Assembly: GCF_000302595.1 (NCBI RefSeq)
Contig: NZ_JH947125.1
Location: forward strand, 384,884 to 448,883
Length of the DNA: 64,000 nucleotides
Source: Pedobacter arcticus A12
GTDB taxonomy: Bacteria; Bacteroidota; Bacteroidia; Sphingobacteriales; Sphingobacteriaceae
Reading direction: 5' to 3'
Part shown: positions 25,716 to 40,906 of the stretch, one piece after another
Layout of the letters: the number at the start of each line of letters is the position of its first letter
Numbering within the stretch: position 1 is the stretch's first letter
Position numbers and translations under genes: made by a program
Notes under the pieces: model-generated
Database searches by the model: none
Told to the model about the DNA's origin: nothing
Seen by the model: the letters and a program-made list of their open reading frames with translations, nothing else

Positions 25716-25725
25716 ATAATTTTGG

Positions 25726-26376
25726 TTAGTTTTTTAAAAATACAGCTTTTCCGAAATAATTAGGTAAATGAAAGTTAGGTTGGGCCGTGTTTGTAATTGG
25801 GCTCCAGCATAAATAGTGAGGCTTTGGCAAATCGTCTCCACATTTATAAAAGTTCATTTTTGCATGTTTACCGTTAAAATTCTCAATTTGATGGAACTCG
25901 AAAACCTCGTTAGGAATTAACATGGTGAGCTGCCAGTTTACCATCTCTTTTTCGTTAAATATAAGAGATTTAAAACTAGAGGTTACTTCAATTTGTTTGA
26001 TTTTTTCTACTGATAATAATTTTCTGTCTTCGGCCGAAGTACCATAGCCGGCCAAACAGGTTCCGGTGCAATTAAATTCGAAATTATAATAAGCGTCTTC
26101 ATTGTTTAAAGCGATAAAAAACTCTACGCAAGAATCTTTATAAACAGGATCATTGATTTTCGTAAACCTTGCTAAAACATTCTCCTCGATAACGTTGAAT
26201 TTCAACAAGATTCCACCGTCAGTGTAAGCTATTGCTACATCTGCTTCTCCAGAGAACTCATAATTCCAAGGGTTACAGTCGATATTGTATTTGATGTTCT
26301 GATCTAGCTTGTTGGTGAATATATCAACGGTTTTTAAGCCTGTTGCGTAATAAGGGATATTAATTTCTTGTTGCAT
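25726..26376 (-). CDS. CBM9-like carbohydrate-binding protein without signal peptide
   Basis: 216 residues. A CBM9/DOMON-like beta sandwich is suggested by ANVAIAYTDG-type opening strands (ADVAIAYTDGGILLKF), DSCVEFFIALNN, YYNFEFNCTGTCLAGYG, KMNFYKCGDDLPKPHYLCW and PNFHLPNYFGKAVF. There is no signal peptide, so as called it stays in the cytoplasm, unusual for a sugar-binding module. It lies between GH20 (88 bp upstream) and the MFS gene (10 bp downstream). A TATATTTG box and an operator-like site lie in the upstream gap, so it may also have its own promoter. Exact ligand unknown. Confidence 0.78.
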   Translation of the reverse strand: MQQEINIPYYATGLKTVDIFTNKLDQNIKYNIDCNPWNYEFSGEADVAIAYTDGGILLKFNVIEENVLARFTKINDPVYKDSCVEFFIALNNEDAYYNFEFNCTGTCLAGYGTSAEDRKLLSVEKIKQIEVTSSFKSLIFNEKEMVNWQLTMLIPNEVFEFHQIENFNGKHAKMNFYKCGDDLPKPHYLCWSPITNTAQPNFHLPNYFGKAVFLKN

Positions 26377-26403: not shown

Positions 26404-26420
26404 GTGTGTCAACGCACACA
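26404..26420 (-). promoter_or_regulatory. Operator-like site before the CBM9-like gene
   Basis: The minus strand reads TGTGTGCGTTGACACA, 14 of 16 bases identical to the site before the sigma gene (39556). It lies about 30 bp before the ATG and next to a TATATTTG box at 26387-26394. Confidence 0.6.
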
Positions 26421-26464
26421 TTTTTTCTCAAAAAGTGATAATCGTTTGGCTTTCTATTGATTAC

Positions 26465-28153
26465 TTATTTGATTTGTTCTTGTTTGGTGAGTTTTTCTGT
26501 ATCTACAGCCTGTTTATTTCTTTGAACGCTGTCAAAATATTCGGGAAATTTTGAAGGTTGAAATGGGTCAAAATAGTACAAACCAGCTTTTGCAAAAAGG
26601 GGAATCTGTTTTGCTAAGCGCTGGTAAAAACTTTCTATATTTTTATTTTTTGGATAGGTCCAAGCCGATTCTGCGAGCGCTGCAATACGGGGGAAAAGCA
26701 TATAATCTAACTGTTGCCAAGTACTCACATGCTCTGTCCATAAGTTTGCCTGTAGACCTATGACTTTTTGGCTAGCATTGGGATAATTTAAAATAGCTGG
26801 GGTAGGGAAATTATAAACACTTGCTAAAGGCACAAAATTTCCATCCCATTTTCTACCGATAGTATGTGAACTGTCTTGCACAAAATCAAAATATAAAGGA
26901 ATACGAGGGCATAAAACGGTTTTGTAACCTTTGTCAAGTGCGTTAAAAAGCTCTTGGTTTTTGTCATGTCGCCACCAAAAAACGGTGGTTTTAGCTGTTG
27001 GTAGGTTTGAAGCAATAACTTCATCCCAGCCCAAAACCTCGTTGTCTAGCTTAATTAATGAGTCGGCCATGCGTTTAACAAAGTACCTTTCTACTTCCTT
27101 AAGTGTGCTTAGATTTTGGTTTTTCATCAACTGCTTTACGTGAGTGTCGGTTTCCCAGCCAGCAATTCCAAAGTCAACTTCATCTCCGCCCATATGGATT
27201 TTACGGGCCGGAAACAGCGCATTTATTTCACGTAGAATATTGGTTAGGTAAGTGTAAGTTTCTTCCTTTCCAGGATTGAATGTGAAATTTGGGTGTTGCT
27301 CTGAACCCCCTCCATTAAACTCAGGATAGGCTTTGTTTGCAGCGCCTGCGTGGCCCGGCATATCTATCTCAGGAATTACCTCAATATATCTTGCCGAGGC
27401 ATAGCTCACAATTTCTTTGATGTCTTCCTGCGTGTAAAATTGTGCGGTTGCTAACGAGTCTGAATAGTTTCCAATTCCCCCAATCAAAGTTAACTTCGGA
27501 TATTTTTTTATTTCAATTCGCCAGCCAGTTTGATCGGTAAGGTGCCAATGAAATTTATTGAGCTTATAAAAAGCCATCCAATCTAAAATCTGTTTCACCT
27601 TTGCTTTTCCAAAAAAATGGCGTGATTCGTCTAACATTAAACCTCTCCATTTGTAAAAAGGTGCATCGCTAATATTCCAACAAGCTAATTTTAAAGCATT
27701 ATTTTTTAATTCGACCTGTTTGATAATCTGTAATAAACTCACCGCTCCTTCAAATAAACCTTCATCAGAATTGGCTATGATTTTAATGCCTGAAGCGTTC
27801 ATCTGTAATCGGTATAAGTCGCCATCAAGCTCTTTTTCAGTAACTGTTTCAAAGCTAATAGCAGATGACTTGGCTTGGCTTACAATGCCTAAGGGAAGGT
27901 GGTGGAATTTCAATAATTCCTGTTGCAGGTAATGGGCTGCCTGCGGATTTGTGTTTTTAGCCACAATTAAAGGCGTGGACGTGTTGAGGTTGAAAACCCC
28001 GGAACCTTTTTGCCATGATTTTGGCTGTGGAATAATAGGGGAGGGCATTTGTGCTTGCAATTGATCAGGCACTAAAAACAATAAATTGATCACCAAAAAA
28101 AAGCATACTTTCTGAAAATGCTTTTTTGGAGTTAATTTCTTTAAATTTTTCAT
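26465..28153 (-). CDS. GH20 beta-N-acetylhexosaminidase
   Basis: Releases terminal GalNAc or GlcNAc by substrate-assisted catalysis. 562 residues; signal peptide to about 35 (ends DQLQAQ), so periplasmic or surface. An N-terminal GH20b domain spans about 38-160, then the catalytic barrel starts at FYKWRGLMLDESRHFFGK. The catalytic pair D324-E325 is in HMGGDEVDF, and EIDMPGHAGAA and LWTEHV are further family marks. It lies 22 bp after GH3 in the same operon and upstream of a sugar permease. In a chondroitin/dermatan setting it would act on GalNAc ends; this is inferred from neighbours. Confidence 0.95.
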   Translation of the reverse strand: MKNLKKLTPKKHFQKVCFFLVINLLFLVPDQLQAQMPSPIIPQPKSWQKGSGVFNLNTSTPLIVAKNTNPQAAHYLQQELLKFHHLPLGIVSQAKSSAISFETVTEKELDGDLYRLQMNASGIKIIANSDEGLFEGAVSLLQIIKQVELKNNALKLACWNISDAPFYKWRGLMLDESRHFFGKAKVKQILDWMAFYKLNKFHWHLTDQTGWRIEIKKYPKLTLIGGIGNYSDSLATAQFYTQEDIKEIVSYASARYIEVIPEIDMPGHAGAANKAYPEFNGGGSEQHPNFTFNPGKEETYTYLTNILREINALFPARKIHMGGDEVDFGIAGWETDTHVKQLMKNQNLSTLKEVERYFVKRMADSLIKLDNEVLGWDEVIASNLPTAKTTVFWWRHDKNQELFNALDKGYKTVLCPRIPLYFDFVQDSSHTIGRKWDGNFVPLASVYNFPTPAILNYPNASQKVIGLQANLWTEHVSTWQQLDYMLFPRIAALAESAWTYPKNKNIESFYQRLAKQIPLFAKAGLYYFDPFQPSKFPEYFDSVQRNKQAVDTEKLTKQEQIK

Positions 28154-28175
28154 CTATGAGGAATTGATTTTAGGT

Positions 28176-30560
28176 TTAATCTACAATAGTGAAAATGCCG
28201 GTTTGTCTAATGTCTTCTGATGAGGAGCCTACCATCACCTTAAAATCTCCAGGCTCTACCACGTGTTGCATTTTTCTGTTCCATAGCTTTACATCATCCG
28301 GTACAATAGAAAAACTAAGGGTCTTGGTTTCATTAGGCTGTAATTTAACCCTTTGGAACCCTCTCAATATTTTTTCATAGGTGGTTACTGTACTCAGTAA
28401 ATCTCTGATATATAATTGCACCACTTCATCGCCAGCTACTTTACCTGTGTTTGTGATGTTTATGGAAACCAAAACTTCTCCGCTTTGGCTATTCATTTTA
28501 TTGTTGATTTTTAGGTTGTCGTATTTGAAAGAGGTATAGCTTAAACCAAAACCGAACGGATAGAGCAAACCTTTGATTTTAGCGGTTTCGCCTTCATCTG
28601 TTTGTGCATTAGGTTTGGTTGGGAAGTTAAGCGGTATCTGTCCTACAGATTTTGGAAAAGTAAGCGTTAGTTTACCTCCCGGATTGTAATTTCCTGCCAA
28701 TACATCGGCAATTGCTGTTCCTCCTTTTACGCCAGGATAGCCAGCATAAACAATGGCAGGAGCGTAACGGTCTATCCAATTGATGCTCATGGGTTGCGAA
28801 CCAATTAAAACTACAATATAGGGTTTGCCTGTTTTAGCAATGGCTTGCACCAAATCTAACTGATGACCTGGCAAATCTAAAGTGGTACGACTTTTATTTT
28901 CGCCTGCAGTTGCCGTGTTACCTCCTAAAACTACAACGGTAAGGTCTGCTTTGGTAGCAATAGCAACAGCCTCGTTAATTGCCGCTGTTTCTTTAGCATT
29001 TAATGGCTGGGGGAAAATTTCACTTTCTGGCCAGTTTTTATCTACTAAATCGCATCCTTTAGCATAAGAAATGTTATTTGCGCCAAACTGATTTTTAATT
29101 CCTTCTAAAACATTAACACTTGGTGAGCGTAAAGGTCCATAATGTGTATGTGCATAGTCGGCATCTGTTGCGTTAGGCCCAACCACTGCAATTTTAGTGT
29201 ATTTTGATCCTAATGGGAGGATGCCATCTTGGTTTTTTAGTAAAACAATACTTTCTTTTGATGCTTGTAGCGCAACCTGTTGGTTAGCGATGCTGTTTAC
29301 GGTTTTTGCACTTGCGTTTGCATCTTTAACATAAGGTTCGTCAAATAATCCTAATCTAAATTTTACACTTAAAACATCGGCTACCCGGTGGTTAATGGTG
29401 TCTATCGGGATCCGACCTTCTCTTACTAAATCTCTGAGGTAATAAATGATGCTATCTGGTGCTCTAAAGGTTGTTCTCACATTCATACCAGCCATAAATG
29501 CTTGATAAACGGCTTCTTTTAGATTTGCTGCTACATGGTGCTTGTTGTATAAATATTCTAAAGCGTCACTATCGCTTACTACGTAACCTTTGAAACCAAA
29601 ATCTTTTCTTAAACGTTCGGTTAGCCAATAAGAACTTCCAGAAATAGGAACGCCATCATAATCATTATAAGAGCTCATTACGCCCATAATATTGGCTTCT
29701 TTAATTACTTTTTTAAATGGGTAAAGTAAAACATCTTCAACCTCTCTGGGTGAAACTTGGGGGTCTGTGCGGGCTAAACCTTCTCGGGCGCCTTTGTTAG
29801 CACTGTAAACTGCAAAATGTTTTGGTGTAGAAGCGGCACCCATTTCTTGAATACCCAAAGCCATTTCTACGCCTAAACGGGCCGTTAAGTAAGGAGATTC
29901 TCCATAAACTTCTTCTAAACGTCCAAAACGCTGGTCTCTGGCAACGTCCAAAATTGGTGCGTATACGTTTGTATAACCCAAAGCCCTTGCCTCTGAACCT
30001 GTAATGCGGCCCATTGCCCTTACTAAATCTTTATTCCAAGTCATTCCCATGTTTAATTGTGTGGGGAAACCAGTCGCAGTATGTGCTTCAATTCCTCGGA
30101 TACCTTCGTTTGTGAAATCAACAGGAATTCCTAAACGGGTTTGTTCGATAAAAAAGCGTTGGGTTTCATTCATTGCCCAAACGTGTTTTTTAATATCGGT
30201 TATAATGGAGGTAGTACTATCTGTATGACCCCAGTTCACGAAACCATTTAAGTGTTCATCTATGTTCGCAATACCATCTTTCCAAATCTCATTTTTCCAC
30301 TGCGGTGTAGGCAAAGAATCTTTAAGTATACGGCGCCAACCATATAGCGTTGCCATCTGATTTGTCTTTTCTTCCAAAGTCATTTGCGACAATAAATCCT
30401 GGACTCTAGCATCTAAAGACTGTTTCGGGTCTTCGTACGTATCTTTCTTTCCATTTTTATTTAAATCAATCCAGCCTTTTTTATAAATGGAGATGATAGG
30501 CTTGAATGAATAAGTAAGACAAATAGATAATGCGAAAAAGAGACAAATAAAGTACTTCAT
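28176..30560 (-). CDS. GH3 family beta-glycosidase
   Basis: 794 residues with an N-terminal signal sequence (MKYFICLFFALSICLTYSFK). Just after it, DLNKNGKKDTYED at 32-44 resembles an EF-hand-type calcium loop. The catalytic barrel holds EARALGYTNVYAPILDVARD, RFGRLEEVYGESP and STPKHFAVYS; the nucleophile is D330 in VVSDSDA. The second domain contains VVVLGGNTATAGENKSR, and an Fn3-like tail (GDEVVQLYIRD) ends the protein. It is the first gene of the operon, behind a promoter and an operator-like site. GH3 covers glucosidases, xylosidases and hexosaminidases; specificity is not visible. In this locus it may remove decoration or linkage-region sugars such as xylose (speculative). Confidence 0.93.
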   Translation of the reverse strand: MKYFICLFFALSICLTYSFKPIISIYKKGWIDLNKNGKKDTYEDPKQSLDARVQDLLSQMTLEEKTNQMATLYGWRRILKDSLPTPQWKNEIWKDGIANIDEHLNGFVNWGHTDSTTSIITDIKKHVWAMNETQRFFIEQTRLGIPVDFTNEGIRGIEAHTATGFPTQLNMGMTWNKDLVRAMGRITGSEARALGYTNVYAPILDVARDQRFGRLEEVYGESPYLTARLGVEMALGIQEMGAASTPKHFAVYSANKGAREGLARTDPQVSPREVEDVLLYPFKKVIKEANIMGVMSSYNDYDGVPISGSSYWLTERLRKDFGFKGYVVSDSDALEYLYNKHHVAANLKEAVYQAFMAGMNVRTTFRAPDSIIYYLRDLVREGRIPIDTINHRVADVLSVKFRLGLFDEPYVKDANASAKTVNSIANQQVALQASKESIVLLKNQDGILPLGSKYTKIAVVGPNATDADYAHTHYGPLRSPSVNVLEGIKNQFGANNISYAKGCDLVDKNWPESEIFPQPLNAKETAAINEAVAIATKADLTVVVLGGNTATAGENKSRTTLDLPGHQLDLVQAIAKTGKPYIVVLIGSQPMSINWIDRYAPAIVYAGYPGVKGGTAIADVLAGNYNPGGKLTLTFPKSVGQIPLNFPTKPNAQTDEGETAKIKGLLYPFGFGLSYTSFKYDNLKINNKMNSQSGEVLVSINITNTGKVAGDEVVQLYIRDLLSTVTTYEKILRGFQRVKLQPNETKTLSFSIVPDDVKLWNRKMQHVVEPGDFKVMVGSSSEDIRQTGIFTIVD

Positions 30561-30604
30561 AGCTGTGGTAGAAGAGGTTTAAATTTTGGTTATTTTATTG
30601 AAAA

Positions 30605-30634
30605 CAAATATATATAAATGTGTGCTCGAAAACA
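30605..30634 (-). promoter_or_regulatory. Promoter -7 box and operator-like site of the GH3 operon
   Basis: On the minus strand a TATATTTG box sits at 30605-30612, about 45 bp before the ATG. Immediately upstream (30621-30634) lies TGTGCTCGAAAACA on the plus strand, a weaker relative of the 39556 motif. A protein bound there would cover the promoter core. Confidence 0.55.
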
Positions 30635-30707
30635 TCAACGGATTTTCAATTTTAAAAAATTAAAGCGGAAAGGAAACGTCCGTTTTTGAGCTAAAGCATA
30701 TTTCATT

Positions 30708-30739
30708 AAAAAGGTTTGAACCTAAATCCAAACCTTTTT
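30708..30739 (-). terminator. Terminator of the beta-helix lipoprotein gene
   Basis: AAAAAGGTTTG pairs with CAAACCTTTTT (11 bp). The hairpin ends in a T tract on the minus strand, 24 bp past the stop at 30763. Confidence 0.9.
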
Positions 30740-30762
30740 AGCACAACCTTATTGATAAATAA

Positions 30763-31980
30763 TTAGTAATTACCGGAATTGGTAATGCCACTTAATAATT
30801 TCACGTATCCTGTTGCGGTATCGTTATTGAAGACTCCACCGCCTGCCGCATTGAAATCTGCTACAACGATATTTGCACTCATAGCATAGATGCAACCGTT
30901 AGGTAGGGAATTATTCGCAATACGTATAGAGTATTCTGAGTGGTCAGGATTATCTCGGTAATAGCCGATACCATGGTAAAGATCATTTGCGGGGCTAATT
31001 CCAGTGATGTTGTTGTTTGATACCACTACATTATTTAAGTAAGGAAAAGCTGTGTTAGTTATATATTCGTATAAAAGAATACCTGAACCATTTAAAGTAT
31101 TGCCAGAAATTGTTAGATCTGAACCATTACGAGCTTTGATAGATCCTCCACCTGCATTTGTTGGCCAGCCAGAAATGGTGTTATTAGATATGGTTAACCC
31201 TGTAAAGCTGTGCGTATAAATTCCATGGTCTGTTAAATCTGCATTTGAATTTAAAGCAGTATTTCTATTAATCGTATTACCACTGATGATTGTACCCTCG
31301 GCATTATTATTTATAGCGCATACAAAATAACCAGTGGTACCCCCGTTTCCAAAAGTGTTATTAAGTACTTGGGCGTTAGTGCTGCTCTTCATCCATACGC
31401 CCCTACCTGCATCTGTTGATCTATGACTAAAAGTGCAACCAGAAACTAAAGAATTGCTTGTTCCTACAAAATCTACATAGCTATCTTTTAAGTTGTTGGT
31501 TTTGTTGGTTCCTGGTGCTCTTTTTCCATAGTCGAATGTGCAGTTTTGAAACGTTACGTTGCTTGCATTATTGATCAACATTCTAATGTTCCAAAATGTA
31601 ATTCCATCAAATTTACAGCTATTCAGCTCTGTAGAATAAGTAAACTGTAAAATACTGGAAGAGCCCGTTGCGCTAAAAATAGGACTAGTGGACTGCTTAG
31701 CTACTGTTACACCCGCTTTCATTACTATTTTACCCGTAATATTATAGGTGCCTGGCTGTACATATACAGTTTGTCCAGAACTTGCACCTGCAATTACTGC
31801 ATTAATTTGTGCCAGTGTCATTCCTGTTTCTATAATGTGATTTGCTACAGAATTAGTTTTGATAGTTGTTTGTTTTGCGCTTGATTCTTCTGCAAGTGTT
31901 TCAGATTTTTTGCAGGACGAGCTTATAGTAGCTACCATAATAAAGAGGCCTACTAATGGGATAAATTGGTTTTTTTTCAT
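30763..31980 (-). CDS. Beta-helix surface lipoprotein (possible PL6-like lyase or glycan-binding protein)
   Basis: 405 residues. The lipobox ATISSSC puts the lipid-bearing Cys at 23. From about 60 the protein is a right-handed parallel beta-helix: repeated rungs such as NASNVTFQNCTF, FTGLTISNNTISG, GSDLTISGNTLNG and NNVVVSNNNITG. The opening TLAQINAVIAGASSGQTVYVQPGTYN resembles that of PL6 lyases, but I do not find the EAE / TSK / NFRHG residues of chondroitinase B. It may therefore bind glycan rather than cut it. Its place after SusD, where surface glycan-binding proteins usually lie, supports that. It has its own upstream operator-like sites and terminator. Confidence 0.75.
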   Translation of the reverse strand: MKKNQFIPLVGLFIMVATISSSCKKSETLAEESSAKQTTIKTNSVANHIIETGMTLAQINAVIAGASSGQTVYVQPGTYNITGKIVMKAGVTVAKQSTSPIFSATGSSSILQFTYSTELNSCKFDGITFWNIRMLINNASNVTFQNCTFDYGKRAPGTNKTNNLKDSYVDFVGTSNSLVSGCTFSHRSTDAGRGVWMKSSTNAQVLNNTFGNGGTTGYFVCAINNNAEGTIISGNTINRNTALNSNADLTDHGIYTHSFTGLTISNNTISGWPTNAGGGSIKARNGSDLTISGNTLNGSGILLYEYITNTAFPYLNNVVVSNNNITGISPANDLYHGIGYYRDNPDHSEYSIRIANNSLPNGCIYAMSANIVVADFNAAGGGVFNNDTATGYVKLLSGITNSGNY

Positions 31981-32030
31981 TGTAAGTTTAATTTTTAAAA
32001 AGTTTATTTTTTGGTTTATAATGGTAAGGT

Positions 32031-32044
32031 TGTGTTCGTAAACA
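32031..32044 (+). promoter_or_regulatory. Operator-like site 1 before the beta-helix lipoprotein
   Basis: TGTGTTCGTAAACA, 13 of the first 14 bases of the 39556 site. It lies 50 bp before the ATG at 31980. The surrounding 31981-32346 gap has two more related sites and the SusD terminator, and no gene. Confidence 0.55.
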
Positions 32045-32085
32045 GTTACCGTATAATTTGGTATAGATAAATGTAGCGTAAAAAA

Positions 32086-32100
32086 TGTTATACGAACACA
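32086..32100 (-). promoter_or_regulatory. Operator-like site 2 before the beta-helix lipoprotein
   Basis: The minus strand reads TGTGTTCGTATAACA. The first nine bases equal the 39556 site. It is 41 bp upstream of site 1 and in opposite orientation. Confidence 0.5.
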
Positions 32101-32160
32101 CTTTATTTGAAATAATAAATTTATTATCCTTGATGATTAATTATTTATAAATCCAAGAAG

Positions 32161-32172
32161 TGTGTTGACACA
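32161..32172. promoter_or_regulatory. TGTGTTGACACA palindromic site
   Basis: A near-palindromic 12-mer with the same TGTG...CACA arms as the other sites but lacking the central CG. It could be a further regulator half-site pair or chance. Confidence 0.35.
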
Positions 32173-32307
32173 GAAAACCTTTAATTAATTAAATTACAGA
32201 TTGTTGATTTAGAAAATTATTTTCTTGAGATTGTTTAACAAAATCATAGATTTTTTGGGGGTCATTAGAAAGTAACTAACAGTTGAGTAGTACTGTTTTT
32301 AGAAAAC

Positions 32308-32339
32308 AAAGATGATTAGCATAAGCTAACCATCTTTGT
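32308..32339 (-). terminator. Terminator after SusD
   Basis: CAAAGATGATTAGC pairs with GCTAACCATCTTTG (14 bp, one A/C mismatch). A TTTTCT tail follows on the minus strand, 8 bp past the SusD stop. It separates the SusCD unit from the beta-helix lipoprotein gene. Confidence 0.88.
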
Positions 32340-32346
32340 AATGAGG

Positions 32347-33969
32347 TTAAAAATTTGGTTTATTTACATCCCACCAAACACGTGTGCCTCCATCGTCTGG
32401 TCCTCCTAATAAGTTTAATCCTATCTGTAGTTCCTTTCCGTTGGTGCTATACTCTGTACTTGGGTAAGCCAATCTTCTAATTTGAATATCGGTATTAATT
32501 GTTCCGTTGCTGTTATTGGTTACCACAGTAAACAGTTTAGGGTAGCCAGTTCGTCTAAATTCAGTCCAAGCTTCTTGGCCTTCTGGAAACATGGCAATCC
32601 ACTTCTGGGTAATAATTTTTTCGAGCATGAGCTCGTTGCTTGCAAGTGGGTCCCATTTAATGGTAACGGTAGACACCCTTGCCGAATTATTTAAAGCACT
32701 TTTTGGATCTGCATAGCCCGTTGGTAAGCTAATTGCATCATTAACATAGGCAGCGTTTGAAACTCCCCACTGTGAAAAAGAAGTTGTAATACCACTTTCG
32801 TAATTAGTTTTTGCATCGCCAGCGCCGGTCCAGTTCCTAAGTGCAGCTTCTGCCTTCAGAAAATATACTTCTGCCGGCGTCATCATAATCATGGGTGCTG
32901 ATGCTGTAAAGGAGGCTGTCGTATTTAAGCCAGAGAAACCATTATAGCCAGGTTTTGCCGGGATTTTTGAACCAATTCTAATTCCTTTATAAGTACCAAC
33001 CATAAGCGGGTCTGTTGCTGGTAAAAAATACTTAGGTAAACGAGGGTCATTATATCCAACTAAATAGGATTCGGCAGCGGCACCCATCCGTATATCGTTA
33101 TAACTGATTGCAATCCCATATAAAGGATTTTGGTAAGCACCTGTTCCGGCAACTTGAGCTATATCTCCAGAGGCAGATAATAACTGTCCAGTATTACTTA
33201 AGGCTTTTTCTCCTTCAATTTTCGCCATTGCTGGGTCAACCTTTGCGATATGAATCGCCAGGCGTAATCTGAGAGAATTAGCCAGTTTAATCCATCTGTT
33301 ATAATCTCCGCTATAAACTAGGTCAAACTTTTGAAAAGGTTTTGCAGTTGGTGTGGCGGCTACAAAAGTCTGTAACGTAGTAACGGCGGTATCTAATTGC
33401 TTGAAAAATAAGCCGTATACATCTTTTTGGCTATCATATGGCGTGTTCAAAACAAAATCTCCCACTTTGCTATAAGGAATTGGCCCAAATTTATCTGTTA
33501 CCCGATGCATTGCTTCAACTTTTAAAATCAAAGCAATTGCCCAAAAATCGGGTTTAGAAGTTTTTAAACCTTGTTTTGCCAAATTACTAACCCCGCCCAT
33601 TACGTCTCCATAAATTCGAGTAAATACCCTAGAATTCCATCGATCTGTTAAAAAGTAATTCATGTTGTTTACATCCGGATTAAACGGATTGTTAGACATC
33701 ATATAACCAGAGTAACAATCTGCGTTTAGATTTTGCATAATTTGATACTGCTGTCTTGTACTATTGAAAATAGAAACTTGTAAGTTAGGGAAAAAGGCTC
33801 CTATGTTATTGTCTGGTAACAGCTGTGCACCGTTTATACCTGTAGGATCTGTATTGTAATCCTCAAAATCTTTTGTACAGCTGGAGCTGGCAATAGTTAA
33901 ACTTGCAAGCAATAAATACAGCCACATCTGACCGATGCGGAAAGTATTATTTATATTTTTAGACTTCAT
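32347..33969 (-). CDS. SusD/RagB-family surface lipoprotein
   Basis: Glycan-binding lid of the SusC transporter on the outer membrane. 540 residues; lipobox IASSSC with Cys at 31, then KDFEDYNTDPTG, the usual SusD-like-2 opening. TPR-type helices follow (WAIALILKVEAMHRVTDKFGPIPYS, YNRWIKLANSLRLRLAIHIA, TPAEVYFLKAEAAL). The tail contains WIAMFPEGQEAWTEFRRTGYP, the group hallmark. It lies 23 bp after SusC and is followed by a terminator. The ligand is inferred from the locus (sulfated glycosaminoglycan fragments); nothing in SusD itself proves it. Confidence 0.95.
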   Translation of the reverse strand: MKSKNINNTFRIGQMWLYLLLASLTIASSSCTKDFEDYNTDPTGINGAQLLPDNNIGAFFPNLQVSIFNSTRQQYQIMQNLNADCYSGYMMSNNPFNPDVNNMNYFLTDRWNSRVFTRIYGDVMGGVSNLAKQGLKTSKPDFWAIALILKVEAMHRVTDKFGPIPYSKVGDFVLNTPYDSQKDVYGLFFKQLDTAVTTLQTFVAATPTAKPFQKFDLVYSGDYNRWIKLANSLRLRLAIHIAKVDPAMAKIEGEKALSNTGQLLSASGDIAQVAGTGAYQNPLYGIAISYNDIRMGAAAESYLVGYNDPRLPKYFLPATDPLMVGTYKGIRIGSKIPAKPGYNGFSGLNTTASFTASAPMIMMTPAEVYFLKAEAALRNWTGAGDAKTNYESGITTSFSQWGVSNAAYVNDAISLPTGYADPKSALNNSARVSTVTIKWDPLASNELMLEKIITQKWIAMFPEGQEAWTEFRRTGYPKLFTVVTNNSNGTINTDIQIRRLAYPSTEYSTNGKELQIGLNLLGGPDDGGTRVWWDVNKPNF

Positions 33970-33992
33970 TTTTAGATATTTTAGAATGAATA

Positions 33993-36900
33993 TTAAAGAG
34001 TTAGATTAAGGCTGATACCTAAACTACGTAGTGCAGGAGGATTAAAAGAGTCAAGCCCTGACAATCCGTTCGCGGATGAAATGGTAATTTCGGAATCAGA
34101 TGGTGCTTTTTTGTAGAAGTAAAGAAGATTTCTTCCAATTAGAGATAGGTTTGCTTTTTTTACAAAACCACTTTTTACAGGAATTTGATAACCTAAAGAA
34201 ACTTCACGTAGCCTTACTACTGTTGCACTATAAATGTATTCGCTAACAGATTGGCTAGCTACAGAATACCATTTGTCGGCATCTATTTTGGAAACCGGGT
34301 TTCCGCTTCCATCTACTCCATTTATCGCAACTCCTCCTGCATTTCTCGCGTCTCCGCTCGCTTTAGAAACACCGTATCGATCTAAGAATGCTTGAGTAGA
34401 CGAGAATATTTCGCCACCAAACCTTCCATCAACTAAAAAACTTAAGCTTACTTTCTTATAATCGAAGCTATTATTCCATCCTAAGAGAAATTTAGGGTTA
34501 GGATTGCCATTATAAAAAAATTGGCCATAGGTTGGATTGTTTGCCAAAGATGGAAGACCGCTACTTCCTATAATCACTCGTCCTTGATTATCTGTTGCTA
34601 ATTTATAACCATAAATATCGCCGTAAGAACCTCCTTTAGTAATTACAGACTCGTAATTTTGAGATGGAACAGTCAATAAAAATTGGTCAATCCCATCTTT
34701 TGAATTTACGTCTTTAATTATATTCTTATTCGTTGAGAAATTGATACTGGTGGTCCAGTTTAAGCTTTTTCCTTTGATTGCATTAAATCCTAATAAAGCC
34801 TCAATTCCCGAATTCTGTATATCACCTGCATTAACATATCCTTTTGTAAAACCGGTAGTTACGGAAGGTGTAATCTGGAAAAATTGGTTAAATGTATTGG
34901 TCTTATAATAGGTGATATTGAATGATAGTTTATTGTCTAAAAGCTTAAAATCGGCTCCAAACTCATATGAATTTGTTTTTTCTGGTTTTAATAAAGGCAG
35001 CGGAGCAACACCGTTTGAAATAACAGCACCACCGGCACCCAAATAATTTTGGGGATTTGTTGCGTAAGTAGCTACACTATTACCTACCTGTGCAAACGAA
35101 CCTCTTATTTTTGTGTAATTAATAAAATCTGGCATGGTTAGCATCTGACTTACCAATACCGAAAGCCCGGCAGAGGGATAAAAATAAGAGCCATTTGGGG
35201 TGAAAGATAAGCTAGAAGACCAATCGTTTCTTCCTGTAAGTGTTAAGAACAGGTAATCTTTATAAGATAAATCGGCACTTGCGAAAACGGATTGCATCTG
35301 GTTCCGTCTTGGGGCCAGTGTGTATCCATTACTGCTAACTGCTGGAAATGCCACACTTGTAGCTGATGAAGAAGGCGGTAGCGTTTGTTGAGAAGCATTT
35401 TGCAACACAACATTTTGAAGTAAAAAAACGTTCGGAATAAATAATCCCAAACCTGGACCAAACCCAAAACCATCTGTCTGTTGATCTTTGATACTAACGC
35501 CTGCTACTCCTCCCAACTTAAAATCAGACTTAGAAGGTAATGTGAATGTAGCAAGTAAGTCTCCGTAAATTTGTTGAACGGTTTGATTGTTGGCTTCAAA
35601 CTGTCCATTAGGCGACACTACTAAAGCTGTATTGGTTCCCGCATAAGAGCGTTGGTTATAATCATCAGTATTTCTGTCTAAATTTCCTCTGATCTGTAAC
35701 CCAAACCAACTATTTATATCATATTTCGCACTTGCATTCAAAATAATTCTATTTCGCTTCGAATAGTTGTTGTTTCTATTTACCACCCACCAAGGATTTT
35801 GTTGTTGAGCCTCGCTAAATGGCCAATTTTGAACTTTTAAGCCATTCCTTGAAGCATCAGGTAGCTCAAAATTATCTTTATATTGTTTGATATCTAAGCC
35901 TCTTGGAAACATGTACAATCCGGGAAGTGCATTTAATGCTGAAATTGTAACAGGACTATTGTCTATTTTTTGAGAAATATAGTTTGCACTGCCATCAACA
36001 TTTAGCTTACCTTTTAAAAGTTTTGCAGTTTCTCTAAAGTTTAAGTTATGCCTCTTCATGCTATTCCCTTCTTGAATACCCGATGCATTTGTATTGGAGT
36101 AAGAAAAGTATGATTGAGCAATTTCAGAACCTGCTGATAAATTCAATGAATTGGTATAATTGTTTCCGTTTTTAAAAAACAACGGCAAATTATCGGTTGC
36201 GTTGGTTATTTTTGGTCCCCAACTTTGGGTAATGGCACCAGTAGGGGTCTGTCCATAATCGTTTTGGAATTCTGGTAAATACACTGCCTTGCTTGTAGTT
36301 GCGGAAGACGAGTAATTAATTTGGGTTGTCCCCGCCTTACCTTTTTTGGTAGTAATTAATATTACCCCGTTTGCTGCTTGGCTACCATATAGGGCACTTG
36401 CAGAAGCTCCTCTTAAAACGCTGATACTTTCAATATCATCAGGATTAAGATTAGAAATTCCGTCTCCTCCATCCGGAACAGCTCCGCCTATACCTGCCGC
36501 AACATTCGGCTGACCGTTAGCATTAGAACTATTAACAAGTGGAACACCGTCAATAACATATAAAGGTTGGTTGCTACCGGCTGCAGATTTATTTCCTCTC
36601 ATGATTACTTTTACAGAACCACCAACGCCAGAAGCATTAGATGAAATGTTTAATCCAGCTACTTTTCCGTTTAAAGAGTTCATCATATTATCGGTTTTTA
36701 CTCGGGTTACCTCATCTCCGTTTACTGTTTGGGCAGCGTAGCTCAGTGATTTTTCTGATCTTTTTAAACCTAAAGCCGTTACCACCACTTCATTCAGGCT
36801 ACTGGCATCTGGCATTAACTTAATGTCGATACTGGATTTTCCGCCAACACTAACCTCTTGCGTGGTATAGCCTATAAAAGAAATCACTAAAACGGCATTG

Positions 36901-37472
36901 GGTTCAATGTTTTTGAGTAAAAAATTGCCATTTACATCAGCAACAGTTGCTTGGGTACTTCCTTTTACTTTAATAGAAGCTCCAATTAATGGCAGACTCT
37001 TTTCGTCCACTATTTTTCCTTTCAAATCTATAAAAACAGCATCTTCCGCCTGTGCTACTTTCTTTTTAGAAGCTACAATAATCATATTGTTTTCTATAAA
37101 ATAGGTAATAGGCTGATTTTTGAAGCACTGATCTAAAACCTCTATTAAGGCTTTGTTAGTTACATTTAAAGATACAGGATTTGCGATATTGATCTGGTTT
37201 TGGTTAATCATAAAATCATAACCACTTTGTTCTCTTAGCGCCCTAAGTACATCGGTAATGGAAGCATTCTTTTTTACCAAGGAGATTTTCTGTGCATTCG
37301 CAGCAAAAGATACCTGTAAAAAAGCAATCAGACAGGTGAGACAAATAAGTTTTATCCTCATGAGAGATCTTTTTATAGTCAGTTTTGTTGTTTCACTCCG
37401 CCATATACCTATGGCTTTGTTGCGGGCATAAGCGGTTATTTTATGACCTTTTGTTTCGTAAAATGTATACAT
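33993..37472 (-). CDS. SusC/RagA TonB-dependent transporter with STN signalling domain
   Basis: Outer-membrane importer for oligosaccharides. 1,159 residues from ATG 37472; the signal peptide begins at internal Met 38 (MRIKLICLTCLIAFLQVSFA), so 37361 is a possible true start. Order: STN domain about 65-115 (ITDVLRALREQSGYDFMIN), carboxypeptidase-regulatory-like domain about 128-215 (GKIVDEKSLPLIGASIKVKG), plug with LNEVVVTALGLKRSEKSL and SISVLRGASASALYGSQAANGVILITTKKG, then a long barrel ending in LGISLNLTL. The STN domain is what contacts FecR, and the FecR and sigma genes lie directly upstream, so this transporter probably senses its own substrate. Confidence 0.95.
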   Translation of the reverse strand: MYTFYETKGHKITAYARNKAIGIWRSETTKLTIKRSLMRIKLICLTCLIAFLQVSFAANAQKISLVKKNASITDVLRALREQSGYDFMINQNQINIANPVSLNVTNKALIEVLDQCFKNQPITYFIENNMIIVASKKKVAQAEDAVFIDLKGKIVDEKSLPLIGASIKVKGSTQATVADVNGNFLLKNIEPNAVLVISFIGYTTQEVSVGGKSSIDIKLMPDASSLNEVVVTALGLKRSEKSLSYAAQTVNGDEVTRVKTDNMMNSLNGKVAGLNISSNASGVGGSVKVIMRGNKSAAGSNQPLYVIDGVPLVNSSNANGQPNVAAGIGGAVPDGGDGISNLNPDDIESISVLRGASASALYGSQAANGVILITTKKGKAGTTQINYSSSATTSKAVYLPEFQNDYGQTPTGAITQSWGPKITNATDNLPLFFKNGNNYTNSLNLSAGSEIAQSYFSYSNTNASGIQEGNSMKRHNLNFRETAKLLKGKLNVDGSANYISQKIDNSPVTISALNALPGLYMFPRGLDIKQYKDNFELPDASRNGLKVQNWPFSEAQQQNPWWVVNRNNNYSKRNRIILNASAKYDINSWFGLQIRGNLDRNTDDYNQRSYAGTNTALVVSPNGQFEANNQTVQQIYGDLLATFTLPSKSDFKLGGVAGVSIKDQQTDGFGFGPGLGLFIPNVFLLQNVVLQNASQQTLPPSSSATSVAFPAVSSNGYTLAPRRNQMQSVFASADLSYKDYLFLTLTGRNDWSSSLSFTPNGSYFYPSAGLSVLVSQMLTMPDFINYTKIRGSFAQVGNSVATYATNPQNYLGAGGAVISNGVAPLPLLKPEKTNSYEFGADFKLLDNKLSFNITYYKTNTFNQFFQITPSVTTGFTKGYVNAGDIQNSGIEALLGFNAIKGKSLNWTTSINFSTNKNIIKDVNSKDGIDQFLLTVPSQNYESVITKGGSYGDIYGYKLATDNQGRVIIGSSGLPSLANNPTYGQFFYNGNPNPKFLLGWNNSFDYKKVSLSFLVDGRFGGEIFSSTQAFLDRYGVSKASGDARNAGGVAINGVDGSGNPVSKIDADKWYSVASQSVSEYIYSATVVRLREVSLGYQIPVKSGFVKKANLSLIGRNLLYFYKKAPSDSEITISSANGLSGLDSFNPPALRSLGISLNLTL

Positions 37473-37586
37473 TTGTTGTTTTGGTTAGGTTGCGCTGATT
37501 TATTTCCAATAATGGACAATAAATTTTTGCAGATTATGGTTGAAAATTATGTTTACTCACATGATTCAATGGCTAACTAAATTTTA

Positions 37587-37619
37587 ACCGGGGGTGCAAC
37601 GAACACCTTCGGTTTTTTT
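37587..37619. promoter_or_regulatory. Hairpin/operator-like site before susC
   Basis: ACCG..GGTG and CACC..CGGT pair around CAACGAA, with seven Ts on the plus-strand side. The inner part (37593-37607) reads GGTGTTCGTTGCACC on the minus strand, close to the 39556 motif with one base fewer. It lies between fecR and susC, so it could act as an operator or as a hairpin that lowers read-through from the sigma-fecR transcript. Confidence 0.5.
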
Positions 37620-37636
37620 GAGCCGTGATTTAAGGT

Positions 37637-38779
37637 TTATGGCGTCACTAAAACCCTCCTTCCTTCAATTTTAAACTTCACATTATAATTTAATTCAATG
37701 GCGTTCAAGATTTCTGTAATTTTTTTCTTTCGGGATATGGTACCAATAAAGCCTGTATTGTTCACAGCCTCATGCTCGTAAACAACATCAACATTGTACC
37801 ATCTTGCAATCTGCCTCATCAGGCTTTGTAAGTTTTCGCCATTGAATACAAAATCTCCATTTTTCCAGGCTACCGCTTGTTCTACATCCTCATCCGTAAT
37901 TTTAAACTGGTTTGCTACAAGCAAAGCTTGTTGCCCAGGTTTTATAAATACGGGCTGAGCTGTTTTTTGTGTAAAAACTTTAACCGATCCTTCTAATAGC
38001 GAAGTTTTGGTGCTCGGCTCATCTGCATAACAATTGACGTTAAAATGGGTGCCCAAAACCTCTATCGTTTGTTTGTTGGTGACTACTTTAAAGGGCTTGT
38101 TAGTCATATGCGCAACTTCAAAGTAGGCTTCACCCTCCAATTCAACTTTCCGCTCATTTAAACCGGTAAAACTTACTGGATATTTTAAAGAGGTTGAAGC
38201 GTTAAGCCAGATTTTAGTTCCATCTGGTAAAATTAACTGGTATTGCCCGCCAACAGGAGCTTCAATTTTATTGAAAAGATTAGCTTGGGTATCGTTTTTA
38301 CTATCAGCAGAGCTGGAATAAATCAATTGCCCATCTTTGGTTTTAGTGATTTTAACACCCGCTTGTGCAGCCAGTTCTCCATTTGAAGTATCCGTTAACT
38401 CAATGCGTTTACCGTCGGCAAGTGTGAGGTAGGCTTTATTGGTGCCAGGGGCAATCTTTTCCGCTACTACTTTTTTAGGAGTTTTTAATTGGGCGATTTG
38501 ATTAATGTTGGTGTAAAAATAAATACCAGCGGTAAGCCCAATAAAAACTGTGGCTGCAACTGATAGTTTTTTCCATAAGGCTATCTTGTTTCTACCTTGC
38601 CTTGATTTTAGATTATTTAAGATTTCCTTTTGTACCAGAAAGTAGTCCGGTATATCTAAAAGATCTGGAGCCTTATCCGCTTCGTTCATATACCAGTTTT
38701 CCAATAAGCTTCGTTCCTGATCAGAGCACTCATTGGCTAAGTATTTTTTAATCAATTGATTTTGATTTTCCGTATTCAC
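37637..38779 (-). CDS. FecR-type anti-sigma factor
   Basis: 380 residues from GTG 38779. The cytoplasmic N-terminus (1-65) would hold the sigma factor. One membrane helix is at about 68-90 (LSVAATVFIGLTAGIYFYTN). The periplasmic FecR domain (VGGQYQLILPDGTKIWLNA, LEGEAYFEVAHMTNKPFKV, LGTHFNVNCY) is followed by a DUF4974 domain (FNGENLQSLMRQIARWYNVDV). It is positioned between the ECF sigma gene and SusC, the standard trans-envelope relay: SusC STN, then FecR, then sigma. Assignment firm; the inducing ligand is inferred from the locus. Confidence 0.95.
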   Translation of the reverse strand: MNTENQNQLIKKYLANECSDQERSLLENWYMNEADKAPDLLDIPDYFLVQKEILNNLKSRQGRNKIALWKKLSVAATVFIGLTAGIYFYTNINQIAQLKTPKKVVAEKIAPGTNKAYLTLADGKRIELTDTSNGELAAQAGVKITKTKDGQLIYSSSADSKNDTQANLFNKIEAPVGGQYQLILPDGTKIWLNASTSLKYPVSFTGLNERKVELEGEAYFEVAHMTNKPFKVVTNKQTIEVLGTHFNVNCYADEPSTKTSLLEGSVKVFTQKTAQPVFIKPGQQALLVANQFKITDEDVEQAVAWKNGDFVFNGENLQSLMRQIARWYNVDVVYEHEAVNNTGFIGTISRKKKITEILNAIELNYNVKFKIEGRRVLVTP

Positions 38780-38891
38780 ATTAAAAATTTTAAAATCCAG
38801 CTTGGTACAGCCGAGATTTAGGTTAATTGGCGTTCAATTATAGGTAAGTAGGTTTGCTAAACCATTGGTGTAATGCGAAAACAAAAAAAGA

Positions 38892-39461
38892 TTAAAAAAA
38901 GAATAGTGAGCCGATAGAACCCACCTTGGTTCGTAAAATCCGGAGGGCATTGCTTATCTGCTTTTTAACAGTATGATCGGAGATATTCAATTTTTGAGAG
39001 ATAGCTTTATAAGACATATTTGAACTTCTGCTCAGTTCAAATATTATCCTCATTTTTTCTGGTAAGGCAGAAACTTCCTTTTCAATGATGCTACTCAGTT
39101 GTTTTTCTCTGATCAAATAATCGGTATAATTTTCATTAGTAGTGTTCAAGGAGTTTAAAGAGGCTAGGTAATTCACCTTTACTTTCTCTTTATCAATGAG
39201 GTCAAATATCTTATAGCGTAAAGCACCATATAAATAAGCAGATAATGTAGTTTTTAAAACTAACTCTTGACCAGATATCCAAAAGGCAGAAAACACATCT
39301 TGTATTAAATCTTTAGCCTCTTCGCTATTCTGCAACATTTTTCTGGCGTGGCGGAATAGTATTGCCCAATATCTATAATAAATTTCATCATATGCGTGGC
39401 TATCTCCCTGTTTAAAGAGGTTCAATAGTTCATTATCCGAAATTTTTGAATAAATATTCAT
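38892..39461 (-). CDS. ECF sigma-70 factor of the SusC/FecR relay
   Basis: 189 residues. Region 2: AYDEIYYRYWAILFRHARKML and AKDLIQDVFSAFWISGQEL. Region 4: LPEKMRIIFELSRSSNMSYK and AISQKLNISDHTVKKQISNALRILR. It belongs to the Bacteroidetes sigma family tied to FecR/SusC sets. It is first in the unit sigma-FecR-SusC-SusD, with 112 bp before fecR. The best copy of the operator-like motif lies about 95 bp upstream, so the relay itself may be under LacI control. Confidence 0.95.
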   Translation of the reverse strand: MNIYSKISDNELLNLFKQGDSHAYDEIYYRYWAILFRHARKMLQNSEEAKDLIQDVFSAFWISGQELVLKTTLSAYLYGALRYKIFDLIDKEKVKVNYLASLNSLNTTNENYTDYLIREKQLSSIIEKEVSALPEKMRIIFELSRSSNMSYKAISQKLNISDHTVKKQISNALRILRTKVGSIGSLFFF

Positions 39462-39826
39462 CTACTTGAAAATTCGACAGGCTAAACCCATTTAATTGTA
39501 ATGAGAAAGCTGACATGACCTTAAGGCTGTTAAACGAAGAATTATAATTGGGTTGTGTGTTCGTTAACACAAAAGTAAATGTAGTAAAAAAATGTAAATG
39601 TGTAATAGGAATTTACGGCTATTTATTTTTATTGGCGGATGAAAAATTTTATTATGCTCGTTATTTGTTTTTTAACTCGCCGATTAATAGGGTTAAGAAA
39701 ATGACTTGTGTTAATTATTATCCTCGCTATTGAGTATATCCCCTGTCTGTCTTTTCTCAAAGGCTAACTTGGGGATAGAAAACTTAACCGTCATTTATTG
39801 CAAATTTCCGAACATCTTATAAGATG
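39462..39826. other. Intergenic region between LacI and sigma genes
   Basis: Holds the sigma-gene upstream region with the operator-like site at 39556, and a perfect palindrome CATCTTATAAGATG at 39813-39826 touching the LacI stop codon (a small hairpin, weak terminator at best). A 61-codon open frame at 39548-39733 is not credible. Nothing else is seen. Confidence 0.6.
39556..39571. promoter_or_regulatory. Operator-like site before the sigma gene (reference copy)
   Basis: TGTGTTCGTTAACACA: six-base arms TGTGTT/AACACA around CGTT. It is the most symmetric copy of a motif found before the susC, beta-helix, GH3 and CBM9 genes. The size and CG-containing centre suit a LacI-family operator. Confidence 0.6.
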
Positions 39827-40906
39827 CTAAATTACGGGGGCATCTGAGTGCACAAAGTAATTTGCGTTTTCTTTGGTAATGATATCTAAGGGCAGGTATT
39901 TTAGCTGTGGTATTGGTTTTTGAAAGATAAGCCGGTCTGCTAATAGCTGTAATGCTGCAGATCCTTGGCCTTTTGGATTTTGGTTGATTAAAAAGCTAAT
40001 GCTATTTTGTTTAAGGTAATGCAGGTTTTGGGGTAACAGATCGTAACCGACAACTTTAACATCAGACAGGTACTTTTGGCTAAGGTATTCCGCAACGTTG
40101 TACACTTTTCCATTGGTCACAAAAACGGCTTTGATATTTGGGTTGGTCTGGAAAACATTATCCATTTGTTTAATAAAGGTAGGTTTGTACTCGTCTGAAA
40201 TTTCTAATTTTAAGAGGTCGAACTGCTGGAGGTTGTTTTGTGTAAAATAGTTTCTGAAGCCTTTTTCTTTTATTTCGAGGTGGGCTGCGTTGGTTATTTT
40301 TGGGTTAAAGTGTACCATTAAAATACTACAGGGGCTTGTTAGCCCGTAATGGATTAACTTGCCCGCCAAATGGCCACTTTGATAGTTGTCTTGACCAATG
40401 TAGCTTAGGGGTTGATAATCTGGAATCTCATTATTGAAGAAAACATGCGGGATTTCTGCTTTTTTCCATAATTCAGAAAAAGGACTAACCTCGTTATGGA
40501 AAATGGGTGTTAAAATAATTGCGTCGTAGTTGTTTTTACTTAATACATTTGCTTGCTCAGTAAAACTTTCGGATTTATCAGGGTTGAAAAGGTAGTATTT
40601 AACGGTAAGTCCGTACTTTTTAAGCGTTTTAGCAACTTTTTCTATGCCTTGTTTTGCATCAAACCAATAGCTACCGAAACTTGGGTCGGGAATAAGTACC
40701 GCAATAGTGTAGTGCTTTTTTGAAACTAAGGCTCGGGCAATAATGTTGGGTTGGTAATCTGTTTCTTTAATAATGCGGAGTATGTTTTTTTCTACGTCGG
40801 TAGCTACTCTACCTCTTTTATGTAATACCCGATCTACCGTTCCTATAGAAACTTTCGCTTTCGCAGCGATATCTGTAATGGTGACTGGTTTATTTGTTTC
40901 TTTCAC
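39827..40906 (-). CDS. LacI-family transcriptional regulator (copy 1)
   Basis: 359 residues from GTG 40906. The N-terminal helix-turn-helix reads TITDIAAKAKVSIGTVDRVL, with hinge ITDYQPNIIARAL. The C-terminal periplasmic-binding-type domain is the kind that binds sugars or sugar acids (IAVLIPDPSFGSYWFDAKQGI, DAIILTPIF, FLINQNPKGQGSAALQLLADR). It closely resembles the protein encoded at 41729 along its whole length, including the recognition helix (SIGTVDRVLHKRGRV versus STGTVDRVLHKRGRV), so both may bind the same operator but sense different sugars. A 21-bp palindrome lies 30 bp before its start. Confidence 0.93.
   Translation of the reverse strand: MKETNKPVTITDIAAKAKVSIGTVDRVLHKRGRVATDVEKNILRIIKETDYQPNIIARALVSKKHYTIAVLIPDPSFGSYWFDAKQGIEKVAKTLKKYGLTVKYYLFNPDKSESFTEQANVLSKNNYDAIILTPIFHNEVSPFSELWKKAEIPHVFFNNEIPDYQPLSYIGQDNYQSGHLAGKLIHYGLTSPCSILMVHFNPKITNAAHLEIKEKGFRNYFTQNNLQQFDLLKLEISDEYKPTFIKQMDNVFQTNPNIKAVFVTNGKVYNVAEYLSQKYLSDVKVVGYDLLPQNLHYLKQNSISFLINQNPKGQGSAALQLLADRLIFQKPIPQLKYLPLDIITKENANYFVHSDAPVI

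Follow-up and report, generated by a model that had tools for sequence, protein, structure and literature searches.

The stretch of DNA analyzed here, 64,000 nucleotides of the genome of Pedobacter arcticus A12 (NZ_JH947125.1, positions 384,884 to 448,883; the window), contains part of a polysaccharide locus in which two LacI-family regulators, LacI1 and LacI2, are encoded beside an extracytoplasmic function (ECF) sigma factor gene and its fecR, susC and susD neighbors. A short CG-centered element recurs in the promoter regions of this locus. From comparative sequence analysis we think it quite probable that the element serves as operator for a NagR-like repressor of the LacI family, one that controls amino-sugar catabolism, regulates its own gene and also gates two ECF sigma/FecR polysaccharide utilization loci (PULs).

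A first-pass annotation had described a shared 16-bp motif at six sites. After inspection of the sites in related genomes we replaced the 16-bp frame by a 14-bp CG-centered core, TGTGNNCGNNNACA, which is common to the good copies at 26407, 30621, 32031 and 39556. Four of the six proposed sites fit this core, i.e. those before the CBM9-nagP, GH3-GH20, beta-helix and ECF sigma genes. Of the other two, the second beta-helix proposal is degenerate and the one at susC is a terminator-like hairpin.

39556 to 39569, plus strand: predicted LacI-type operator core TGTGTTCGTTAACA, before the ECF sigma-FecR-SusC-SusD genes; reported by a model built from relatives' sites only
26407 to 26420, minus strand: predicted operator core TGTGTGCGTTGACA, before the genes for a CBM9_2 protein and a nagP-like major facilitator superfamily (MFS) transporter; ends 12 nt before a −7-like box, TATATTTG
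30621 to 30634, plus strand: predicted operator core TGTGCTCGAAAACA, before the GH3-GH20 genes; 8 nt ahead of TATATTTG
32031 to 32044, plus strand: predicted operator core TGTGTTCGTAAACA, before the beta-helix protein gene; 9.6 bits with the relatives' model
32086 to 32100, minus strand: doubtful, degenerate second beta-helix site TGTGTTCGTATAACA, with one surplus base in its right half; 7.0 bits with the relatives' model
37586 to 37614, plus strand: hairpin, not an operator, of 11 pairs and a T run between fecR and susC; contains the proposed susC site

All four cores are intergenic, each lies upstream of a gene, and all fall in the side of the window named in the first-pass annotation. Measured from the center of the site, the start codon is 102 bp away for the sigma gene (39556), 38 bp for CBM9 (26407), 58 bp for beta-helix (32031) and 68 bp for GH3 (30621). 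The 16-mer itself, TGTGTTCGTTAACACA, has an exact match at 39556–39571, and its variant TGTGTGCGTTGACACA on the minus strand at 26405–26420 differs by two mismatches (14/16 identical). With up to three mismatches allowed there are five matches in the window where 0.80 are expected, and 0/100 shuffles reach five; three of the matches are intergenic, while those at 34235 and 42335 are intragenic. A looser pattern, TGTNNNCGNNNACA, adds one place in the window, at 34235 within susC. The core sites have the form of a LacI-family operator, an even palindrome with a central CG, and those of the relatives include perfect CG-centered palindromes such as TGTGTGCGCACACA. The proposed susC site (37593–37607) misfits the core and was rejected, being the upper stem and loop of the 11-pair hairpin, which is followed by a T run on the plus strand. 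The whole hairpin, on the coding strand, could act as an attenuator or a processing hairpin inside the sigma-FecR-SusCD operon. A separate 12-bp palindrome-like element without a central CG, TGTGTTGACACA, is present at 32161–32172, upstream of the beta-helix gene.

A genome-wide scan had been suggested as a check on whether the motif matches random intergenic DNA equally often, and its outcome favors the motif. The core occurs at 12 places (13 strand matches) in the 4.23-Mb genome, and eight of these are found within one 58.6-kb polysaccharide locus that makes up 1.39% of the genome. Each of the eight is in an intergenic region ahead of a gene. Half of them belong to the window; the other four lie 9–21 kb past its right end, where a second susC (susC2) has two, and a GH88-like gene and the nagB-glmM-kinase genes have one each. 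With these four in the ~21 kb by which the locus extends past the window, the sites are not limited to the SusCD half. The binomial probability of placing 8/12 in 58.6 kb is 6e-13, for a span drawn round the outermost sites; that of having 9/12 intergenic and upstream of a gene is 1.4e-6, taking the 12.8% non-coding share of the window as background. With the window excluded, four of the eight remaining places are within 25 kb of it (1.4e-6); the 25-kb size was picked late, and this test is independent of the site-drawn span. The reversed pattern gave 14 places, all of them within genes (0/14 intergenic), the open reading frame cut-offs being 100/90 amino acids for the core and 70 amino acids for the reversed pattern. 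The mirror pattern found no places other than those of the core.

Could the sites reflect chance resemblance among AT-rich promoters? The total of matches does equal that of the reversed control (13 strand matches, not above 14), and only the placement is special. Yet the concentration in the locus, the intergenic positions and the four places close to the window all speak against chance, as does a model trained on other genomes (see below) that reports this locus only, among the 150/1191 candidates scored. A chance origin is hardly credible overall; the controls oppose it for the four core sites, but it still applies to the susC item and perhaps also to the second beta-helix item.

The ninth intergenic core, C1:229182 (L057:9183), is 36 bp from the start of a sigma factor gene (L057 8558–9154) belonging to another ECF sigma-FecR-SusCD set, which adjoins a GH18 gene. 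No LacI match from the genome search lies near this set at C1:229 kb. Eight of the nine intergenic sites are 30–140 bp from a start codon; the exception, L055:17836, is 206 bp from the annotated start and, among the eight places of the locus, is the least certain. The matches at C1:170528, C1:1075279 and C6:12434 are intragenic and were rejected as operators, as was C3:233918, which has no central CG.

The proximity of the sites to promoters, and to a sigma gene in one case, might indicate that they belong to the promoter motif of the ECF sigma factor itself and not to a repressor operator. We regard this as very improbable. The sites are near-palindromic and occur in both orientations relative to the gene, and a core is found within the returned loci (~1.5 kb either side) at just 2/27 ECF-like genes of the genome, leaving 25/27 without one in these roughly 3-kb loci. 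Moreover, sites are present at nagB/kinase operons beside lacI in the relatives' loci L078, L079, L082 and L097, where BLAST with the two sigma/FecR sets of this genome detected no sigma/FecR relative.

The same core is found around the LacI genes of related bacteria. For the 20 best-scoring genomes other than the source genome, we examined stretches of up to 20 kb surrounding the best LacI match. These loci contain 23 cores, in 13 of the 20, compared with 0–4 matches for eleven control patterns (reversed, other centers, other spacings and other outer letters); with the central CG changed to GC, TA or AT there were 2, 1 and 4 matches respectively. Twenty of the 23 are intergenic and the other three lie ≤16 nt from a predicted start. 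Aligned with both strands of each site entered, they give the consensus TAATGTGTnCGnACACATTA. A sequence-only model made from the relatives' sites alone reported three places in this genome at E ≤ 10 among the first-look candidates that were scored, and all three are in the locus, at the sigma gene, nagB and susC2. When the fetched stretches were searched with this model, 32031 and the second susC2 core were reported as well.

We extended the comparison to 301 genomes of the family, drawn evenly from a larger group. LacI2 orthologues were defined by E ≤ 1e-100, a cut-off set after looking, in the gap from 2.7e-104 to 1.4e-79, with at most six candidates scored per genome; tallies for orthologue, paralogue-only and hold-out genomes were compiled by eye from match lists. 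A stricter pattern, TGTGTKCGNANACA, is present in 33/40 genomes with a LacI2 orthologue and 82/261 without (P = 9e-10), and in 16/19 hold-out orthologue genomes whose loci were unread beforehand (P = 7e-6), although the genomes are not phylogenetically independent and these P values are a guide only. The reversed pattern occurs in 12/40 orthologue genomes. Positions were listed for 15 of the 16 positive hold-out genomes, and in eight of them the nearest site is ≤20 kb from a lacI gene. Genomes having only 38%-identical paralogues contain the site in 21/72 cases, compared with 61/189 for genomes with neither. We link the motif to LacI2 because the sites are concentrated near LacI2 orthologues and because their occurrence tracks the orthologue and not the 38% paralogues. 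In two genomes without an orthologue a palindromic match was seen inside a reading frame, deep within a 952-aa frame in G196 and 54 nt inside a 124-aa frame in G238.

These data also bear on the idea that the sites belong to some other regulator, for example a further LacI protein of the genome (C2:793156, recognition helix STGTVDRVI) or a CRP-like protein. The C2:793 kb paralogue (L063 9148–10209) is 39% identical and has the central recognition helix of LacI2 (STGTVDRV), and the limits of the relatives' model, with 150/1191 candidates scored and 4/9 own sites missed, weigh in the same direction. But the loop following the helix is different, there is no core in the 19-kb stretches round either paralogue, and the site is no commoner in paralogue-only genomes than in those lacking both orthologue and paralogue. 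The outer TGTG/CACA letters of the core resemble a CRP site; the central CG, however, fits LacI, the counts with other centers were low, and a CRP regulon would be expected to exceed nine promoter sites. Another regulator is thus unlikely.

Two LacI-family proteins are encoded in the window.

41729 to 42805, minus strand: LacI2, LacI-family regulator (PF00356 and PF13407), the conserved orthologue and most probable binder
39827 to 40906, minus strand: LacI1, a diverged duplicate of LacI2 (67% identical), on a long branch; its recognition helix begins with Ile in place of Thr

Both have the N-terminal LacI helix-turn-helix (PF00356; 44.6 bits for LacI1 and 53.9 for LacI2, cut-off 27) and the periplasmic-binding-protein-like effector domain (PF13407; 150.4 and 147.1 bits), and neither reaches any cut-off in an NCBIfam search. 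The nearest solved chain to LacI2 is 3gbv, a putative LacI-family regulator (E = 9.7e-51). LacI2 has a branch length of 0.13 and lies near its orthologues, while that of LacI1 is 0.57; the two are weakly grouped as sisters (86/38). The first-pass annotation had tied both regulators to the motif. On the sequence evidence the conserved partner and candidate binder is most probably LacI2, and LacI1 is a fast-diverging duplicate. The 822-bp gap between the two genes contains, at 41453–41519, a REP-like 24-nt inverted repeat that is 88% complementary, CTGAGCGGAGTCGAAG.

The operators might nevertheless be partly divided between two diverging repressors, the SusCD-half sites going to LacI1 and those of the lyase/nagB half to LacI2. 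The lacI1 gene is directly upstream of the sigma gene, its product differs in the first recognition-helix residue and has the long branch, and the relatives' model gives lower scores in the window (10.8, 9.6, two unreported) than beyond it (16.1, 12.9, 8.8, one unreported). On the other hand only eight sites are available, the sigma site and L055:17836 have an identical 14-mer, and the relative G103 has a single LacI match at E ≤ 1e-60 (6/11 candidates scored), of LacI2 type, yet carries the CBM9-nagP site. We hold a division of this kind to be possible but doubtful. The window SusD has close relatives in other genera, and a search of 17 further genomes of the same genus gave no match to it at E ≤ 1e-140, so the sigma-SusCD block was possibly acquired; LacI1 may have been fitted to it.

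Where the relatives' sites have recognized neighbors, the gene that follows is nagB, an APH-type hexosamine kinase gene, lacI itself or CBM9-nagP, and lacI is located among these genes. The CBM9-nagP pair also carries a site in L064 and L112. Sites before nagB and an N-acetylglucosamine (GlcNAc) permease, as expected of a NagR regulon, are found here and in relatives, the permease being a below-cut-off NagP hit. The congener L065 has the arrangement nagB-glmM-kinase-lacI-[site]-sigma-FecR-SusC, and L104 and L106 each have a site ahead of kinase-SusC-SusD; these arrangements tie the operator to outer-membrane import genes beyond this genome. The 18 further relative regions were mostly picked for holding sites, and serve as target evidence and for the −7-box count below, with no enrichment count made from them. 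Because of these target genes the effector is likely to be an amino sugar (GlcNAc, N-acetylgalactosamine (GalNAc) or a phosphate) rather than chondroitin disaccharides. The lacI2 gene ends a long run that starts at susC2, with tandem cores upstream of susC2, and by this gene spacing lacI2 is likely autoregulated.

The predicted targets and other genes of the window are these.

38892 to 39461, minus strand: ECF sigma factor gene, predicted target
37637 to 38779, minus strand: FecR anti-sigma gene, predicted target, in the same operon by position
32347 to 37472, minus strand: SusC (TonB plug and STN signaling domain) and SusD genes, downstream of sigma/FecR and without a core site of their own
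30763 to 31980, minus strand: beta-helix protein gene, predicted target
26465 to 30560, minus strand: GH3 and GH20 genes, predicted target operon
24435 to 26376, minus strand: CBM9_2 gene and MFS transporter gene, predicted target operon; best NCBIfam hit of the transporter is NagP, below cut-off
42877 to 63978, minus strand: sulfatases, chondroitinase B, two PL8 lyases and GH88 (truncated by the end of the window); these genes and lacI2 are all downstream of susC2

The MFS permease scores 409 of the 625 bits needed for NCBIfam NagP. The TIGR02985 score of the sigma factor, 122.6 bits, is below the cut-off of 126.4, yet the protein has the Pfam sigma region 2 and 4 domains, and the genes for ECF sigma, FecR, SusC and SusD are consecutive, as in an ECF sigma/FecR-regulated PUL. 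Beyond the window the locus runs for ~21 kb (L055/L056, C1:445–470 kb), with a second SusCD pair, another PL8 lyase, two further sulfatases and the nagB-glmM-kinase operon. Upstream of susC2 (L055 9500–12658) are two cores 31 bp apart, at C1:457739 and 457770. An STN domain is present in SusC1 and in the SusC of the GH18 set, both of which are behind sigma/FecR; SusC2 has no STN domain by Pfam and no sigma/FecR alongside in the fetched stretch, and the tandem cores are directly upstream of it. NagB is a deaminase/deacetylase fusion (glucosamine-isomerase and PIG-L domains) followed by a phosphoglucosamine-mutase-like gene and the APH-type kinase, and the operon reads as a hexosamine-1-phosphate route to fructose-6-phosphate. 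Adjoining the GH88-like gene is a GluR0-like protein gene (L055 18042–19151; C1:463042–464151) with extracellular solute-binding and ligand-gated ion-channel domains.

The position of the sites relative to TAnnTTTG, which we take to be the Bacteroidota −7 element, suggests the sign of regulation. Among 40 sites with one clear target direction, counting the G238 site and allowing promoter distances up to 320 bp, eight have TAnnTTTG 8–13 nt past the site, ten have it ≤45 nt off and four on the upstream side, with about 1.9 expected. It is present at CBM9-nagP, GH3-GH20 and nagB. This spacing would put the operator over the −33 region, which favors repression. Ten close pairs of sites occur in the LacI-linked loci, five 31–32 bp apart, four 104–105 bp and one 57 bp; the pairs are not independent, several of the source genomes being closely related. 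As the 31–32 and 104–105 bp spacings come close to integral numbers of turns of the helix, binding may be cooperative or involve looping.

Site positions, their placement in the genome, their clustering with LacI2 orthologues, the neighboring genes and the distance to −7-like boxes at some sites were observed directly, and a mechanism may be proposed from them. A dimer of LacI2 type would bind TGTGTKCGNNNACA-like sites overlapping the −33 region of Bacteroidota promoters and block them. Breakdown of glycosaminoglycan or a GlcNAc polymer would raise intracellular amino sugar (GlcNAc/GalNAc or its phosphate), on which the repressor would depart. This would derepress the nagB-glmM-kinase operon, CBM9-nagP, GH3-GH20 and the long susC2...lyase/sulfatase...lacI2 run, together with the ECF sigma genes of the two sigma/FecR/SusCD PULs. 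The outer-membrane glycan signal of the sigma/FecR relay would then be joined by an intracellular sugar signal that licenses the relay. A LacI repressor layer over the relay had been proposed in the first-pass annotation, and both the core placement and the co-occurrence with LacI2 in relatives lend it support. More tentatively, with a probability that we would put a little short of even, this may amount to an AND gate in Sphingobacteriaceae, in which an intracellular amino-sugar repressor restrains the ECF sigma genes of amino-sugar-polymer PULs, the surface glycan relay becoming armed only when the monosaccharide pathway signals flux, and in which the repressor was duplicated (LacI1) beside an acquired sigma/FecR/SusCD block, its DNA specificity now diverging.

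Several points weigh against an amino-sugar repressor acting at these sites, besides the total count of cores noted above. Seven of the 20 relatives' loci have no site in the fetched stretch, 7/40 orthologue genomes have no match to TGTGTKCGNANACA, and in 7/15 hold-out genomes the sites are on contigs other than that of lacI. The pattern that collected the relatives' sites was derived from this window, so that the core letters were preset, with flanks and inner positions free. The genome scan with the resulting model scored only 150/1191 first-look candidates, and 4/9 own sites (26407, 30621, L055:17836 and L057:9183) were unreported at E ≤ 10 with default filters. Some of the relatives' sites precede genes without a match in this locus (L069, part of L099, L101, L102 and L107). 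TAnnTTTG is just downstream of only 8/40 sites, and is absent at the sigma gene. Binding, repression as opposed to activation, the effector, operon structure, autoregulation and the role of LacI1 are inferred.

If true, a LacI operator on a sigma gene would provide a PUL with a second, intracellular sugar signal. What results is a concrete operator sequence and a regulon predicted to span two PULs and the nagB operon. The duplicated pair of repressors would, in addition, allow diverging DNA specificity to be studied directly. It would also link to amino-sugar metabolism a LacI branch whose nearest solved relative is annotated merely as putative. An amino-sugar LacI regulon in Sphingobacteriaceae reaching into sigma/FecR PULs, and an operator on a PUL sigma gene, look new, although LacI regulons in general are well known: searches among open-licence papers in PubMed Central (PMC) listed none on a LacI amino-sugar regulon in Sphingobacteriaceae and none on a LacI operator at a PUL sigma gene. 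To our knowledge, with no motif database searched, no regulator with the consensus TGTGTKCGMACACA has been described.

The operators of LacI-family regulators are typically CG-centered even palindromes, mostly 30–140 bp upstream (PMC4052901). Those of CcpA, PurR and LacI share with the present core the even palindrome, the central CG and the distance, but the sequence here, TGTGTKCGMACACA, is different. The closest functional parallel is NagR, a LacI-family regulator of GlcNAc-use regulons in Gammaproteobacteria, which include a nagP permease and an outer-membrane receptor in Shewanella, and a kinase and TonB-dependent receptors in Xanthomonas (PMC2996990, PMC5343134). The present system is NagR-like by virtue of its LacI family and its GlcNAc-use targets. 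It belongs to another phylum, however; it has an APH-type kinase with a GlmM-like mutase, probably for a hexosamine-1-phosphate route, and a NagB fused to a PIG-L deacetylase, and its predicted regulon takes in SusCD PULs and ECF sigma genes.

In the same phylum, Bacteroides has the LacI-family regulators KdgR, UxaR, UxuR and UxmR, which handle uronates, while sialic acid and GlcNAc are covered by the ROK-family NanR, and chondroitin and hyaluronan are under the hybrid two-component system BT3334 (PMC3878776). LacI-family regulators of xylan systems are mentioned in general terms in PMC12125979. PMC3878776 also describes control of Bacteroidota PULs by surface signals through SusR-like, hybrid two-component or sigma/anti-sigma systems. 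The locus studied here has the sigma-FecR-SusC-SusD order, the STN-domain SusC and the relay of the ECF sigma/anti-sigma PULs as given there; it differs in that its sigma gene has a predicted LacI-type operator, which would add an intracellular signal.

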